From NCBI GenBank assembly GCA_016935665.1, contig JAFGQN010000109.1:1-54886 (forward strand): a DNA stretch of 54,886 nucleotides, read 5' to 3'. Below, piece after piece: positions 45,195 to 54,371 of the stretch. Every line of letters starts with the position of its first letter. Positions within the stretch are counted from its first letter, which is position 1. Position numbers and translations under genes: made by a program. The notes beneath the pieces are model-generated. The model saw only the letters and a program-made list of their open reading frames with translations, was not told the DNA's origin and did not search any database. Source of the DNA: Deltaproteobacteria bacterium. GTDB taxonomy: Bacteria; Myxococcota_A; Polyangia; JAAYKL01.

Positions 45195-46796
45195 ATGATG
45201 AAAGATTCAATTAACTTTGGTTTGTTGCTCTATATGCTATTGGTGGCGATACTTGCCATGGGATGCGGCAGCGATCCAAACGAGGGTGGAGAAAGCGACG
45301 CGGATTCGGATGGCGATGGCGATGGCGATTCCGATACCGACGGCGATTCCGATACCGATGGCGATTCCGATACCGATGGCGATTCCGATACCGATGGCGA
45401 TTCCGACAGCGATGGCGATTCCGACAGCGATGGTGATTCCGACAGCGATGGCGGGTTGTGCAAAGCGCCCAACGAATGCCACGGCGACTGTTCGCGGTAT
45501 CCCGACGCGGTTCAAGTGGATGGAATTTGCGAAGGTGCCGATGAAGGCGACATGTGCTGCGATATGAACCCCAGTGGTTCGGATGGAGATACGGATAGTG
45601 ACGGTGATACAGATAGTGATGGCGACACAGACAGCGACGGAGACACAGACAGCGACGGAGACGTTGAGTGCACCCTGCCCGATTTCCCCGCTCTGGACAG
45701 TCTGCCCAAAAACGATAAACTTCCCGATCCGTTTACATTTTTTGACGGCACAAAGGTGACCACCAAAGCACAGTGGGAATGCCGCCGCAGAGAAATACAG
45801 GCGATGGCGGCCCACTACATTTACGGCCCGTATCCATTCGAACCAGATGAAACCACCGGAACCGTGTCTGGCAATACAATTAACATCACTTGCAAGGAAG
45901 GCTCAAAAACAGAGACTTTCACAGCGACAATCGGCAGTGGTTCAGGCGATATTCTAAACGTTAATCTGGGGATGGGGTCAATTTTGCCCAATGGTAAAGC
46001 GCTATCATTTGGAAACGGTTTCGAAGGCAAAATAAAAAGCCTGTTTGGTTTATCCGGGGATATGAACACAAACGTCGCCACCGGCTGGATGGTTGACAGG
46101 GTGATTGATGTGCTGGAACAAAACCCGGATAGCGGATATGATCCTGAAAAACTGGCGGTATCGGGATGTTCCGGATGTGGAAAAGGGGCTTTCCTGGTGG
46201 GTGTCTTCAGTCGTATACCAATGACTGTTATCGTTGAGTCGGGCGGGGGTGGCGCCGCCAGTCTGAGACAGGCGGAGTGGTTCCGGCACGGTGATGGTAA
46301 ATCCACCTGGCAGTGCTCAGATGCCCTGCCTCAAAGCATTGATAACCTCGAAAACGACGGTATATGCGGACCATGGGTGACCAGCGTGGCGGCCCCACTG
46401 CGTTCAAATCCCGCCAAGGTATATAACCTCCCCTTCGATCAACATTTGCTTCTGGCAACTATTGCGCCGCGATATTTGGTGCATTTTACAAATGCCAACG
46501 GTACAAATTCATGGTGCCACCTCGGCGGAACCTGTGAAGCGCTCTCCGCATGGGCCGCAGCACCGGTATGGAAAGCACTTGGCGTAGAAGACAACATGGC
46601 GTTTGAAATGTACAGCGGCGGTCACTGCGGCGTCGGCGATACCGGCATTGCAGCCGCCATGTTCAAACGCGCATTCGATGGCGATACCAGTGGAAAAACA
46701 GGCGGCGTGAAGATCATGGACAATGGTGTTCAACAACCGGTCAGCGAATGGAAAAGCATGTGGATTGACTGGGATATGGATACGGTGCTGAAGTAA
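45195..46796 (+). CDS. CE15-like glucuronoyl esterase lipoprotein with Asp/Ser/Gly linkers
   Basis: A 533-aa lipoprotein (signal peptide with lipobox LAMGC; AAAGGAAAC before the ATG). Two D-S/T-D-G repeat linkers (about residues 32-90 and 128-156) flank a small Cys-rich module (CKAPNECHGDC...GDMCCDM) that resembles a carbohydrate-binding region. The catalytic part starts near residue 156 and resembles the CE15 glucuronoyl esterase family: SGCSGCGKGAF with nucleophile Ser326, VESGGGGAASLRQAEW, HLLLATIAPRYL, and SGGHCG with presumed His477. CE15 enzymes cleave ester bonds between glucuronoxylan and lignin. The usual GCSRxGKGA has Gly for Arg here, and this Arg helps the oxyanion hole in known enzymes, so activity may differ. 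Probably on the cell surface. Confidence 0.8.
   Translation: MMKDSINFGLLLYMLLVAILAMGCGSDPNEGGESDADSDGDGDGDSDTDGDSDTDGDSDTDGDSDTDGDSDSDGDSDSDGDSDSDGGLCKAPNECHGDCSRYPDAVQVDGICEGADEGDMCCDMNPSGSDGDTDSDGDTDSDGDTDSDGDTDSDGDVECTLPDFPALDSLPKNDKLPDPFTFFDGTKVTTKAQWECRRREIQAMAAHYIYGPYPFEPDETTGTVSGNTINITCKEGSKTETFTATIGSGSGDILNVNLGMGSILPNGKALSFGNGFEGKIKSLFGLSGDMNTNVATGWMVDRVIDVLEQNPDSGYDPEKLAVSGCSGCGKGAFLVGVFSRIPMTVIVESGGGGAASLRQAEWFRHGDGKSTWQCSDALPQSIDNLENDGICGPWVTSVAAPLRSNPAKVYNLPFDQHLLLATIAPRYLVHFTNANGTNSWCHLGGTCEALSAWAAAPVWKALGVEDNMAFEMYSGGHCGVGDTGIAAAMFKRAFDGDTSGKTGGVKIMDNGVQQPVSEWKSMWIDWDMDTVLK
45327..45452. repeat. 18-bp coding tandem repeat (GDSDTD/GDSDSD linker)
   Basis: Seven units of 18 bp, each close to GATTCCGATACCGATGGC, in frame with the esterase gene. 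A second, more diverged set of the same period (GACACAGACAGCGACGGA type) runs from about 45586 to 45662. The copies encode Asp/Ser/Thr/Gly linker hexapeptides. Confidence 0.9.
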
Positions 46797-50299: not shown

Positions 50300-51025
50300 T
50301 CAGAAGAATTTGCAAATGGTAATCAGATGGGCGAGTTTTGTTGGATTGTCAACATCCAGATGGACATTCAGTTTTTCGTAGATACGAGAAAATGCTTTAT
50401 TAACGCTTTGGTTTGAGACGCCTATTCGCTTTGCCACTTCAGTTTGGCGCGGAAACCCTCTGGACCACTCATCCAGTATTTCGATCTCTCTTTTGGATAG
50501 ACCTGCGCTTTTGAACAACGTCAGTTTAGTCAGACTCTCAGGCTGAAATGGCATTGATGAAGGTAAGGACAGCACTGCGTCCACCGCCTCGCTGATTTTC
50601 AGACTGTGACTTTTTATCCAGAAATCCCGAATACCGCATCGAGCAGCGTTATAAATCATTTCGATGGATGCTTCCTCTGCCCAAAAAACAACCTCGCCGC
50701 CATAACCTCTGTATCTTGCGAAATCGATAAATGCGTGGCAGGATTTGAAATTGTCGAACACATCCGGTGAGACGATGACAAGCTCCGTTTTCTCAAGGAG
50801 CACCCCAGCAACGAGAATGTCCGGATTGTTAAAGGTTTTTACCTGGTAGTCTTCCTCTTTTTTCAGTCTGTATGCATACTTTTGAACCTTGTAATTGTCA
50901 CTATCGCAGAAAACGATCTGTCGTGTACAGGATTTGTTTTCCATCCGTTCTAAATCCACGCGTTGCCGGCATGGTCTCTTCTGGCCATTCGCACGGGAAT
51001 GCGTAAGGGAAATAGCAGTTGTCAT
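50300..51025 (-). CDS. LuxR-type response-regulator-like transcription factor
   Basis: A 241-aa regulator. The C-terminal about 65 residues are a LuxR/FixJ helix-turn-helix (LSKREIEILDEWSRGF, then EVAKRIGVSNQSVNKAFSRI). The N-terminal part (about 35-150) has the length and alternating pattern of a receiver domain (IVFCDSDNYKV..., LVIVSPDVFDNF). The usual phosphoacceptor Asp is not in a clear context, so it may be an unphosphorylated pseudo-receiver. ATG 51025 has AAGG upstream; ATG 50944 is an alternative that would start just before the receiver. No kinase gene is adjacent. It lies downstream of the caspase-like operon on the same strand. Confidence 0.8.
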   Translation of the reverse strand: MTTAISLTHSRANGQKRPCRQRVDLERMENKSCTRQIVFCDSDNYKVQKYAYRLKKEEDYQVKTFNNPDILVAGVLLEKTELVIVSPDVFDNFKSCHAFIDFARYRGYGGEVVFWAEEASIEMIYNAARCGIRDFWIKSHSLKISEAVDAVLSLPSSMPFQPESLTKLTLFKSAGLSKREIEILDEWSRGFPRQTEVAKRIGVSNQSVNKAFSRIYEKLNVHLDVDNPTKLAHLITICKFF

Positions 51026-51141: not shown

Positions 51142-52860
51142 TCAGAATTTCAAGGTGTAATTCAACTGGACCGCAGTGTTGAAATTGGTGCCCAGCGCAA
51201 TGGGGGGCGGTGACACGTTCGGTCTGTTTTTGGGCCAAACAACAATCGCTGCGGTAATCGCAATTGGTACCAGGGCACCGGCAATCCAGGCGGATGTTCC
51301 GTATTTCTGATACTCTGAATTACGTATTTTCTCGGTTTTTTCGACCGAAGTACTATAGAATTGGTCTTTGGCGTGCAGGCTGAGGATGGCAAATGCGGCG
51401 GCCAGCCCACCGCTCACCGCTGCAAAAGCAAACAATGAAGTTGACCAAATCTTTTTTTGGCGAATGGAATCCCGCTCAGCAAATTTGCGAACAGAATCTC
51501 TCTCAGCAAAATTGGCATTTTCTGTTTTTACCAGATCTGTCTGCAATTGGGAGGAATGAAATGCTACAGGAATGAGTGCACTGCTGTCAATGATGCCTTT
51601 ATAATATTCGGGGCTATAGGCCGAGGAAAACAGTCCTTTGGTAAGTGAGGTCTCAATACTCCCCCTGGTTGCTGTTTCTTTTGTAGCAAAAACCATGTTT
51701 CCAATGTTGTACTCATGGTTTTCATCAAGCGTCAAAACAGACTCCCTATCTTCTGAGTAGACAAATATTGGTTGATTCGCAGGTACCCAAAAACGGGTGT
51801 TTGAAATGCCCCGCAGGTGACCGTCAGCAAACCGTTGACCATTTTCCAATTCCACATAAAAATGGCTGAGTCGAGACATATCCCCGGTTAAAAATGCCGC
51901 ATTTGAAATGTCGGAAATGTCAACAATCGGCTCATTCTGATTTCTGTCCGGGGGGGTTGCCACTACGTCCACTCTGGCAAATTCCTTTTCGACAGAGCGA
52001 TTTGCCGCAACGGTGAACGCATACAGTTCACTATACGCGATTTCGCCATCGCCATTAATGTCCGCCAAACCAGACAGCCCCGAGAGAACCACATGCGTAA
52101 ACACACCGGATTCCAACCTGGACCATTCGTGAGACTGCTGGGAAGTCGACGACGACAGGAATATTCCCAATCCCGGATATCGGGATGGATCTACTGGTGT
52201 AACTTTCAGTTGTTCCTCCTGAGAAAGAATCTCCCGTGTGGCATCGGCTTCGTTATCAAACAGACCACGGCTACCAACGACGCCTTCGGCGTAGCAGGCG
52301 TCTATCAACAGATGAACGAAGTCGGCGTTGAGTGGACCAATTATCTGCGAGTATAGTGCGTCCCTGGTCAGGTGCCCATCCACCAGCAACAAACCAGGAA
52401 CACCTCTGCTGTCCTGAGCGCCGTGACCACTGAAATACAGATATACCGTTGATTTGATTCCAGAAGCAGTGTCGCTGGCAATTATTTTTTTCAATTTTTC
52501 AACTGTCCGTGCGAGGTGATTCAGCGTAGGCATTTCGGTTTTATCAACGATTTCGGGATATCGGCGCTGCGTCGTTTCATCGGCCACGGTTAGCAGCCAC
52601 ACTTTTGACGCGATTCGGGATAGAAACATAAACATGCGAATCGCATCGTCATCGGCATAACGCAGCAATTGAAGAGTATCCCGCTGGTACTCGCCGGGAG
52701 AATTATTGCCTACAATGATCGCATATCGATGTTCTGCCTTTGCAGCACGTCCCGTCGCGGAATGAAAAAGCACAAAAAAAAGGACGCATACACAAACAAA
52801 AATGTGCGTTTGAGTCGCTGCGACTTTAAATTTACGTTTATGATTATTGGTCTTCCACAT
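51142..52860 (-). CDS. Secreted or periplasmic caspase-like (C14) protease with C-terminal membrane spans
   Basis: About 572 aa from ATG 52860; TTG 52863 is also possible. A signal-anchor or signal peptide (about 18-42) precedes a peptidase C14 domain: RYAIIVGNN at the start, catalytic His146 in YFSGHGAQ and Cys189 in LIDACYAEG, giving the usual His-Cys dyad. An EF-hand-like loop DINGDGEIAYSEL follows near residue 270. The second half has a beta-rich domain, two hydrophobic spans near 480-540 and a C-terminal segment ending NYTLKF, which resembles outer-membrane beta-strand ends. It overlaps the 3' end of the preceding membrane-protein gene by 17 bp, so the two are co-translated. Bacterial caspase homologues act in signalling or cell death; here the partners suggest regulation by the sigma factor. 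Confidence 0.85.
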   Translation of the reverse strand: MWKTNNHKRKFKVAATQTHIFVCVCVLFFVLFHSATGRAAKAEHRYAIIVGNNSPGEYQRDTLQLLRYADDDAIRMFMFLSRIASKVWLLTVADETTQRRYPEIVDKTEMPTLNHLARTVEKLKKIIASDTASGIKSTVYLYFSGHGAQDSRGVPGLLLVDGHLTRDALYSQIIGPLNADFVHLLIDACYAEGVVGSRGLFDNEADATREILSQEEQLKVTPVDPSRYPGLGIFLSSSTSQQSHEWSRLESGVFTHVVLSGLSGLADINGDGEIAYSELYAFTVAANRSVEKEFARVDVVATPPDRNQNEPIVDISDISNAAFLTGDMSRLSHFYVELENGQRFADGHLRGISNTRFWVPANQPIFVYSEDRESVLTLDENHEYNIGNMVFATKETATRGSIETSLTKGLFSSAYSPEYYKGIIDSSALIPVAFHSSQLQTDLVKTENANFAERDSVRKFAERDSIRQKKIWSTSLFAFAAVSGGLAAAFAILSLHAKDQFYSTSVEKTEKIRNSEYQKYGTSAWIAGALVPIAITAAIVVWPKNRPNVSPPPIALGTNFNTAVQLNYTLKF

Positions 52861-53644
52861 CAATTTTAACCCGGGAAATTCTGGTGCGAGTCCCGGGACC
52901 CTTTAGGGTTGTGCGTACTGTGGTCTCCTGTTGCGCACTCGCCAATACCAATGTCTTAATTTCATCACGATTCATGGCGTAGTCGCCGAGGATACCGACA
53001 ATCTCGTAAATTCCCGGGGAATACAGGTCATCCAGTACAATGGCTTCGGATAATATTTTGTCATGTTGCGATACGGCGATACTCTTCTCACCCATCTGTC
53101 CCGGAAACATCCAGATCACAAGCGCGTCGGATTTGCGAATGGCAAAAGCCGAGAAATAAGAATCCACTGCAATGTCTCTGAATGAAAAAGTCAGTCTGCT
53201 GCCCTGGACACAGCCGGTTTCACTGTCTTCATTCAGACAGCGCACTTCAAAAAAGGATACCAGCGGTCCTCCACTTTTAGATGTGAACGCGGGTATCTCA
53301 CCGCTTCCGCTGAATCGCAGCCATAAAAAGCATCCCAGCGCGCACAACATCACCAATGCCCCAATCGCGGAGAGTCGGCGAATTCCGGTGAAACGTGAAA
53401 CATGCAGAATTCCGGTATGTGCACGATCCGCTTCAGACAAACGTTGAAGAACATTCTCAAGCACCTGCTCTTTTTCCTGTATTGTCACATCATTCCTCTG
53501 AGAGAGAAGACGCGCGACAAAATTATTATCCGTCCTTCCGTAGCGGTTGTTTAATTTCGAAAACAGACTCCGTTTTCTGTATATTTCTTTGATTCGTTTC
53601 ATAAAACTTTCCGGGTCAGCCACTATTACGACTGCACGTTCCAT
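52844..53644 (-). CDS. Membrane protein of the sigma-caspase operon, possible anti-sigma factor
   Basis: A 266-aa protein with one membrane span (about residues 90-112, LSAIGALVMLCALGCFLWL). The N-terminal cytoplasmic part of about 88 residues is charged and helical, in the position and size of an anti-sigma domain, but no zinc-binding ZAS motif (HxxxCxxC) is visible. The C-terminal periplasmic domain is beta-rich and resembles DUF4384-type modules (FRDIAVDSYFSAFAI, IWMFPG). Start at ATG 53644 or at ATG 53602, which has GGAAAG in front. It lies between the sigma gene (85 bp away) and the caspase gene. A role in transmitting an envelope signal is inferred from context only. Confidence 0.65.
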   Translation of the reverse strand: MERAVVIVADPESFMKRIKEIYRKRSLFSKLNNRYGRTDNNFVARLLSQRNDVTIQEKEQVLENVLQRLSEADRAHTGILHVSRFTGIRRLSAIGALVMLCALGCFLWLRFSGSGEIPAFTSKSGGPLVSFFEVRCLNEDSETGCVQGSRLTFSFRDIAVDSYFSAFAIRKSDALVIWMFPGQMGEKSIAVSQHDKILSEAIVLDDLYSPGIYEIVGILGDYAMNRDEIKTLVLASAQQETTVRTTLKGPGTRTRISRVKIDVEDQ

Positions 53645-53729
53645 TTTGGCGGAAAAAAATAATCACCGCTGGAAATTGTTTTCTTAAAGTCGGTCATACT
53701 CCCAAAATCCCAGACATTCAGAAGCCGAA

Positions 53730-54371
53730 TCATTGCCGTAGCAATCCTCTTTGTCGTAAATACTTCTCAAGATTCAGTTGCAGTTGCTTCTCAAGCGCAC
53801 GTGCCTTCCAACGAGTCATATTCAGTTGTCTGGCGACTTCAAGCAGAGGCAACTCCTCCTTAAAACGAAATGCGATAAATTGTTGATGACGCGCACTCTG
53901 ATTAGAAACAAATTCTTCCGATGCCTCAAGGCAATGTTGAAAGAAAATTCGGTCTTCTTCATCGGGGACAGCTACCTCAGTCCTCTGGATGATATTTTCG
54001 GGCACATGAACTCCATATCCTTCGGAATGATTTTGCCCCGCAGCCACAGGGTCTCTGGCATGCGCACGCCAATAATCTATCAGGCGATTGCGCGCAATGG
54101 TCAGCAGAAAGGCGTGATAGGGACGAATACCATCGTAGGATTCTCTGGCACTTTTCGAAAATGCCCTTAAAAAAACATCCTGAAGAAGGTCCAAACGCTC
54201 ACTGATATTTGCAACGCCCTTGATGAAATTCCCCTTATGCTTATCAGTAAATCCGGTTTGCAGACACCGAAGTACAGCATTTGCATACGTACGATACACT
54301 GTTGTCAGCGCATCGTGTTCGCCCCGTCTGAAGGCATCAAGGAGCTCTCGGTTTTCATTCAGTATGGTCAT
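53730..54371 (-). CDS. ECF-type RNA polymerase sigma factor
   Basis: A 213-aa sigma-70 family protein of ECF type. Region 2 spans about residues 10-110 (ALTTVYRTYANAVLRC, DLLQDVFLRAFSKS, AFLLTIARNRLIDYWRA; the DxxQDVFxRA and NRLIDYWR blocks are diagnostic). Region 4 spans about 145-205 (QQFIAFRFKEELPLLEVARQ, LNMTRWKARALEKQL). The first gene of a three-gene minus-strand operon with a membrane protein and a caspase-like protease. Target promoters are unknown; autoregulation is likely for ECF systems but no consensus could be defined in the upstream 500 bp. Confidence 0.9.
   Translation of the reverse strand: MTILNENRELLDAFRRGEHDALTTVYRTYANAVLRCLQTGFTDKHKGNFIKGVANISERLDLLQDVFLRAFSKSARESYDGIRPYHAFLLTIARNRLIDYWRAHARDPVAAGQNHSEGYGVHVPENIIQRTEVAVPDEEDRIFFQHCLEASEEFVSNQSARHQQFIAFRFKEELPLLEVARQLNMTRWKARALEKQLQLNLEKYLRQRGLLRQ

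Follow-up and report, generated by a model that had tools for sequence, protein, structure and literature searches.

An exported caspase encoded with an ECF sigma factor and an anti-sigma factor in Myxococcota: a probable regulated-proteolysis switch

Composition of the three-gene locus

The window analyzed here (the whole stretch of 54,886 nucleotides) carries three consecutive genes encoding an ECF sigma factor, a single-span membrane protein and an exported C14 protease (Table 1). All three lie on the minus strand, with 85 nt between the sigma gene and the gene for the single-span protein and an overlap of about 17 nt between the latter and the protease open reading frame, so the close packing given in a preliminary description of this DNA holds. 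The sigma factor matches TIGR02937 (E 1.9e-14) and Sigma70_r2 (6.9e-8) over their cut-offs, while its Sigma70_r4 match falls slightly under; with regions 2 and 4 and without region 3, it is of the ECF type. The protease matches PF00656 (7.3e-8), and its reading frame ends at 51142 and may start at either TTG 52863 or ATG 52860. The catalytic pair named earlier, His146 and Cys189, is correct when numbered from the ATG and corresponds to residues 147 and 190 when numbered from the TTG, as in Table 1.

A LuxR-type regulator (50300-51025, minus strand) is encoded directly 3' of the caspase gene; there is no conserved downstream neighbor at the other loci. Elsewhere in the window (45195-46796) a secreted hydrolase-like protein carries long SDSDGDSDSDG linkers, and similar D/S/G repeats are found in another part of the same genome (locus L190).

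Table 1. Genes and features of the locus, with positions in the window.
Feature	Position	Strand	Basis
ECF sigma factor, 213 aa, regions 2 and 4	53730..54371	-	TIGR02937 53.6 bits, over cut-off; PF04542 6.9e-8
Single-span anti-sigma factor, 266 aa, divergent	52844..53644	-	profile-profile 99.5%, E 3.6e-23, against family members
Cytoplasmic three-helix region, residues 11-76, predicted anti-sigma domain	53417..53614	-	AF2 helices 11-32, 39-48, 55-76
Transmembrane helix, residues 92-111	53312..53371	-	structure model and hydropathy
Candidate caspase cleavage site F120-T-S-K123↓S124, juxtamembrane linker	53273..53287	-	conserved motif, disordered linker
Periplasmic beta domain, DUF4384-like, residues 130-264	52853..53257	-	pLDDT mostly >90
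Exported C14 metacaspase-like protease, likely start ATG 52860	51142..52863	-	PF00656; metacaspase/legumain fold, Z 16-18
Catalytic stretch: His147 (52425-52423), Cys190 (52296-52294), Asp188 at Cys-2	52294..52425	-	invariant in 81 aligned sequences
R199-G200, nine residues after catalytic Cys, candidate autoprocessing site	52264..52269	-	K/R 100%, G 89%
EF-hand-like loop DINGDGEIAYSE	52027..52062	-	EF-hand models match 5/17 relatives
R400-G401, second candidate autoprocessing site, before C-terminal membrane region	51661..51666	-	K/R 98%, G 90%
Two C-terminal hydrophobic helices, predicted membrane anchor	51238..51438	-	hydropathy and long helices in model

No family in Pfam or NCBIfam is dedicated to the single-span protein, and neither the NCBIfam anti-sigma model NF052375 nor zf-HC2 nor DUF4384 matches it directly. 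Its relatives are more readily recognized: among 41 family members, 27 match NF052375 (below its cut-off), 10 match zf-HC2 and nine match DUF4384. A profile alignment places the window clade with these other members over residues 39-242, and the three-helix region of the window protein, modeled with moderate helix confidence, occupies the same position as the zf-HC2 region of the relatives. The earlier suggestion that its N-terminal domain sits where an anti-sigma domain would be is therefore borne out by the family match. The Hx3Cx2C zinc motif is absent from the window copy; this motif is optional in class I anti-sigma factors (ASDI), being present in about half of them (PMC7406223). Features of this class that the window protein does have are three N-terminal helices and a gene adjoining that of its ECF (adjacency at 71 of 80 related loci). 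The linker that follows the membrane helix (residues 112-131) is without secondary structure in the structure model (pLDDT 53-64), and a PDB fold search with the protein returned generic Ig-like matches only, none of them at E 0.001. At another locus of the same genome (L212:664-2125, G000:C231), an in-frame fusion of 487 aa directly before a caspase joins, in this order, an ECF sigma factor, a zinc-finger anti-sigma domain, a membrane helix and a DUF4384-like domain, and carries the linker site discussed below as LYPKG. We conclude that the middle protein is a member of the anti-sigma family and is predicted to bind and inhibit the sigma factor.

The window protease has a caspase fold with a His/Cys dyad and a predicted export signal, and structure comparison groups its protease domain with those of metacaspases and legumains. 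The catalytic His and Cys and the Asp at Cys-2 are present in all 42 caspases and invariant in the 81-sequence alignment; these caspases are metacaspase-like in both catalytic residues and fold. The D-x-C arrangement is found in clan CD enzymes that cut after Arg or Lys, such as metacaspases, MALT1 and clostripain, and its Asp would contribute to an acidic S1 pocket suited to such residues. The EF-hand-like loop resembles calcium-binding proteins in the PDB, and metacaspases are calcium-dependent and cleave after Arg or Lys (PMC8283722). Both conserved basic-Gly pairs lie in parts of the protease predicted to be flexible, R199-G200 in a loop of mean pLDDT about 58 and R400-G401 within a segment of pLDDT <50. 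Their conservation suggests autoprocessing with the same specificity as the linker site, or the pairs could instead be structural. The regions that follow the protease domain vary (for example at L055 and L061): the window clade has two membrane helices there, other caspases a longer, beta-barrel-like sequence, and many of the latter end in an aromatic residue.

Distribution of the module

The host genome (8.16 Mb, Myxococcota) encodes 17 caspases, and 66 of its genes pass the family cut-off for ECF sigma factors. An ECF gene lies directly upstream on the same strand for 11 of the 17, and in all 11 pairs the membrane protein is encoded in between or, in one case, fused to the sigma factor. A random gene of this genome has by arithmetic a chance of about 0.8% of having an ECF gene within 2 kb upstream on the same strand, and therefore the arrangement is not a matter of chance. 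The module has been multiplied by paralogy in this genome.

The other six caspases have no ECF gene upstream. At loci of this kind (L041, L042, L075, L077 and L078) the caspase gene is followed by small genes for secreted or lipoprotein-like products, several of which carry a Cys-rich FDLWCxxxLCxWxV motif, and a downstream sigma gene is sometimes present.

We also gathered 80 related loci independently from GTDB genomes; those records with a named group are myxobacterial or deltaproteobacterial. Sigma factor, membrane protein and caspase are encoded in that order at 71 of the 80, and the membrane protein is present at 76; several of the loci without the full triad are interrupted by contig ends. 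Myxococcus xanthus, Plesiocystis, Enhygromyxa, Archangium, Hyalangium and one Sorangium MAG are among the sources of related modules. This neighborhood is thus class-wide in Myxococcota rather than unique to the host genome. A conserved fourth gene was sought in the flanks of the 80 loci and none was found, the largest neighbor cluster being present at six of them. No plasmid-borne copy was found with one caspase query, and a phylum-wide search with the anti-sigma profile was non-specific, as generic anti-sigma domains match it too. Apparent mid-caspase fusions in high-GC loci were rejected as an artefact of stop-to-stop reading frames.

The juxtamembrane site and co-evolution of the partners

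Almost every member of the anti-sigma family carries the motif [F/L]-x-[A/S/P]-[R/K]-[G/S] just outside the membrane, with F/L at P4, A/S/P at P2, R/K at P1 and G/S at P1'. Counted over the 40 residues that follow the membrane helix, the pattern [FLIVWYM]x[ASPVT][KR][GS] is present in 80 of 99 caspase-linked anti-sigmas, against an expectation of 7.4 and a maximum of 16 in 300 shuffles of each linker. It is present in none of the 34 transmembrane proteins encoded beside caspase-free ECFs in the same genome (1.8 expected). The distance from site to membrane ranges from 0 to 34 residues across the family and is 12 residues in the window protein, and conservation is higher at the basic site than in the rest of the linker. 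The candidate site matches metacaspase specificity and is specific to caspase-linked anti-sigmas.

Two further observations concern individual loci. In L045:4541-5539 and L136:3904-4902 tandem copies of the motif (FLVKS...FRVKS...FRVKS...) lie between the membrane helix and the ectodomain. One DUF4384-like transmembrane protein of the same genome that has no caspase (L214, a single case) is without the site.

Tree distances of anti-sigma factor and caspase are correlated at 0.88 over 68 triads. When the anti-sigma factor was split at the membrane, the ectodomain correlated more strongly with the caspase (0.77; partial correlation 0.70) than with its own cytoplasmic half (0.51), and the sigma factor correlated at 0.61 with the cytoplasmic half and at 0.30 with the ectodomain. 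These differences stand in at least 99.9% of 1000 subsamples. Because subsampling leaves shared ancestry in, the correlations support, and do not prove, co-evolution of the ectodomain with the caspase and of the cytoplasmic half with the sigma factor. The co-evolution of membrane protein and protease that the preliminary description had suggested looking for is thus supported for the periplasmic side of the protein. The choice of K or R at the anti-sigma site was also correlated with the choice at the two sites of the caspase (Fisher p 6e-4 and 4e-3); this covariation was dropped because the tree holds too few independent pairs for significance.

Proposed mechanism and relation to known systems

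Two of these observations are new, namely the linker R/K site specific to caspase-linked anti-sigmas and the metacaspase-like caspases with two R/K-G sites of their own in predicted loops, and they point to a mechanism. We put at roughly 0.6 the probability that the three genes form a regulated-proteolysis switch in which the caspase makes the site-1 cut in the anti-sigma factor and the sigma factor is freed after a second cut. The cytoplasmic N-terminal helices of the single-span, class I-type anti-sigma would hold the ECF sigma factor at the inner membrane, and the exported caspase would reside near or in the same membrane, cutting after Arg or Lys. The caspase would be activated by a signal in the periplasm, perhaps calcium or a ligand that the DUF4384-like domain binds, and activation would probably involve autoprocessing at R199-G200 and R400-G401. 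The activated enzyme would then cut the linker just outside the membrane (at K123 in the window copy), and a site-2 protease together with cytoplasmic proteases would clear the stump and free the sigma factor. The exported caspase would in this way probably switch on a stress gene program, the presumed regulon of the sigma factor. The balance tips slightly in favor of the more specific and broader reading that the operon-encoded metacaspase is the dedicated site-1 protease of an ECF anti-sigma factor, with a conserved Arg/Lys-Gly bond on the outer side of the membrane as its target, that about one sixth of the ECF sigma factors of the host genome are caspase-gated, and that the switch has been multiplied in Myxococcota.

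The preliminary description had proposed that a membrane-linked caspase releases the sigma factor independently of the usual site-1 and site-2 proteases. Its core, an exported caspase acting on an anti-sigma factor, agrees with the class-wide operon, the anti-sigma family membership, the specific site and the co-evolution, and cleavage itself is what we infer from them. Independence from site-2 proteolysis does not hold up in the same way: a cut 12 residues outside the membrane would leave the sigma-binding half tethered, which probably makes a site-2 protease necessary even so; several M50 (PF02163) protease genes are present in the host genome. A role in cell-death signaling, also raised there, finds no echo at the locus or in its relatives, where nothing points to cell death.

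The strongest alternative, which we consider unlikely, is that the caspase is an output. The sigma factor would transcribe its own operon, and the caspase would accumulate after another protease has cleared the anti-sigma, then target further proteins of the envelope or take part in cell death. Autoregulation is frequent among ECF operons, and the caspase is the last gene of this one, as would be expected; however, neither the restriction of the R/K-G juxtamembrane site to caspase-linked anti-sigmas nor the tracking of the caspase by the ectodomain tree is explained. Somewhat less probable is the idea that the conserved R/K-G caps the Ig-like ectodomain structurally or acts as a topology signal, and that it occurs with the caspase only through common descent of one module. 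The pair does lie at the edge of the beta domain on its N-terminal side, and the K/R covariation is not phylogenetically significant, but a structural cap sits poorly with a linker of 0 to 34 residues before it, with disorder of the model at the site, with the tandem repeats in L045 and L136 and with the missing site in the caspase-free protein of L214 (one case). Least probable is a silencing role in which the ectodomain inhibits the caspase or serves as its receptor and the sigma factor is signaled by binding or conformation without cleavage, an idea that fits the tight ectodomain-caspase co-evolution and the recurrence of DUF4384 as a fusion partner of cyanobacterial orthocaspases but not the invariance of the catalytic residues in all 81 aligned sequences or the excess conservation of the basic site over its linker.

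The caspase-cut model resembles the RseA-DegS-RseP pathway of E. coli sigma-E in that a single-span anti-sigma holds an ECF sigma factor, the first cut is periplasmic (as proposed here) and genes for site-2 (M50) proteases are present in the genome. It differs in the candidate first protease, which is a C14 cysteine protease of the same operon with Arg/Lys at P1, whereas DegS is a PDZ-containing HtrA serine protease. Operons of sigma-70 and metacaspase genes were reported in 2012 from Myxococcus, Anaeromyxobacter, Haliangium, Sorangium, Ralstonia and Fibrobacter; in M. xanthus, four of the five metacaspase operons include sigma-70 genes (PMC3501461). To judge from the operon section of that paper, which names no anti-sigma factor, cleavage site or mechanism, these are very probably the same operons as the module described here. 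For ECF54, which has CHAT and subtilase proteins nearby, gene context has also led to the proposal that a caspase-fold neighbor controls the ECF by proteolysis, but that proposal concerns ECFs without an anti-sigma factor (PMC8999054). EACC2-caspase systems likewise place a caspase domain and an ECF sigma factor in one neighborhood, but as presented in the relevant part of the source they involve EACC2 and TRADD-N/TPR proteins and an autopeptidase model, with no membrane anti-sigma described (PMC8195603).

Sequence alone is enough to name the enzyme, its presumed substrate, the cleavage site and the transcriptional output of this module, which is found in M. xanthus and other cultured myxobacteria. 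The function of bacterial metacaspases is a long-standing question, usually discussed in terms of programmed cell death. The module allows this question to be tested directly and, if the model is true, assigns bacterial caspases a definite function that is open to experiment. Among mechanisms already worked out, the nearest is Craspase (Cas7-11/Csx29, Csx30 and CASP-sigma), in which the caspase-like Csx29 cleaves the sigma inhibitor Csx30, and which likewise unites a caspase-like protease, a sigma inhibitor and an ECF sigma factor in one module (PMC10028731). Craspase, in contrast, is cytoplasmic and CRISPR-linked, its protease is an RNA-activated TPR-CHAT protein, and its inhibitor is not a membrane anti-sigma with a DUF4384-like ectodomain; the window protease lacks the TPR-CHAT architecture and has an export signal, and no type III-E effector is found among the adjoining open reading frames. 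If our model is true, caspase-type proteases have come to release sigma factors on at least two occasions, in the cytoplasm with Craspase and across the membrane here.
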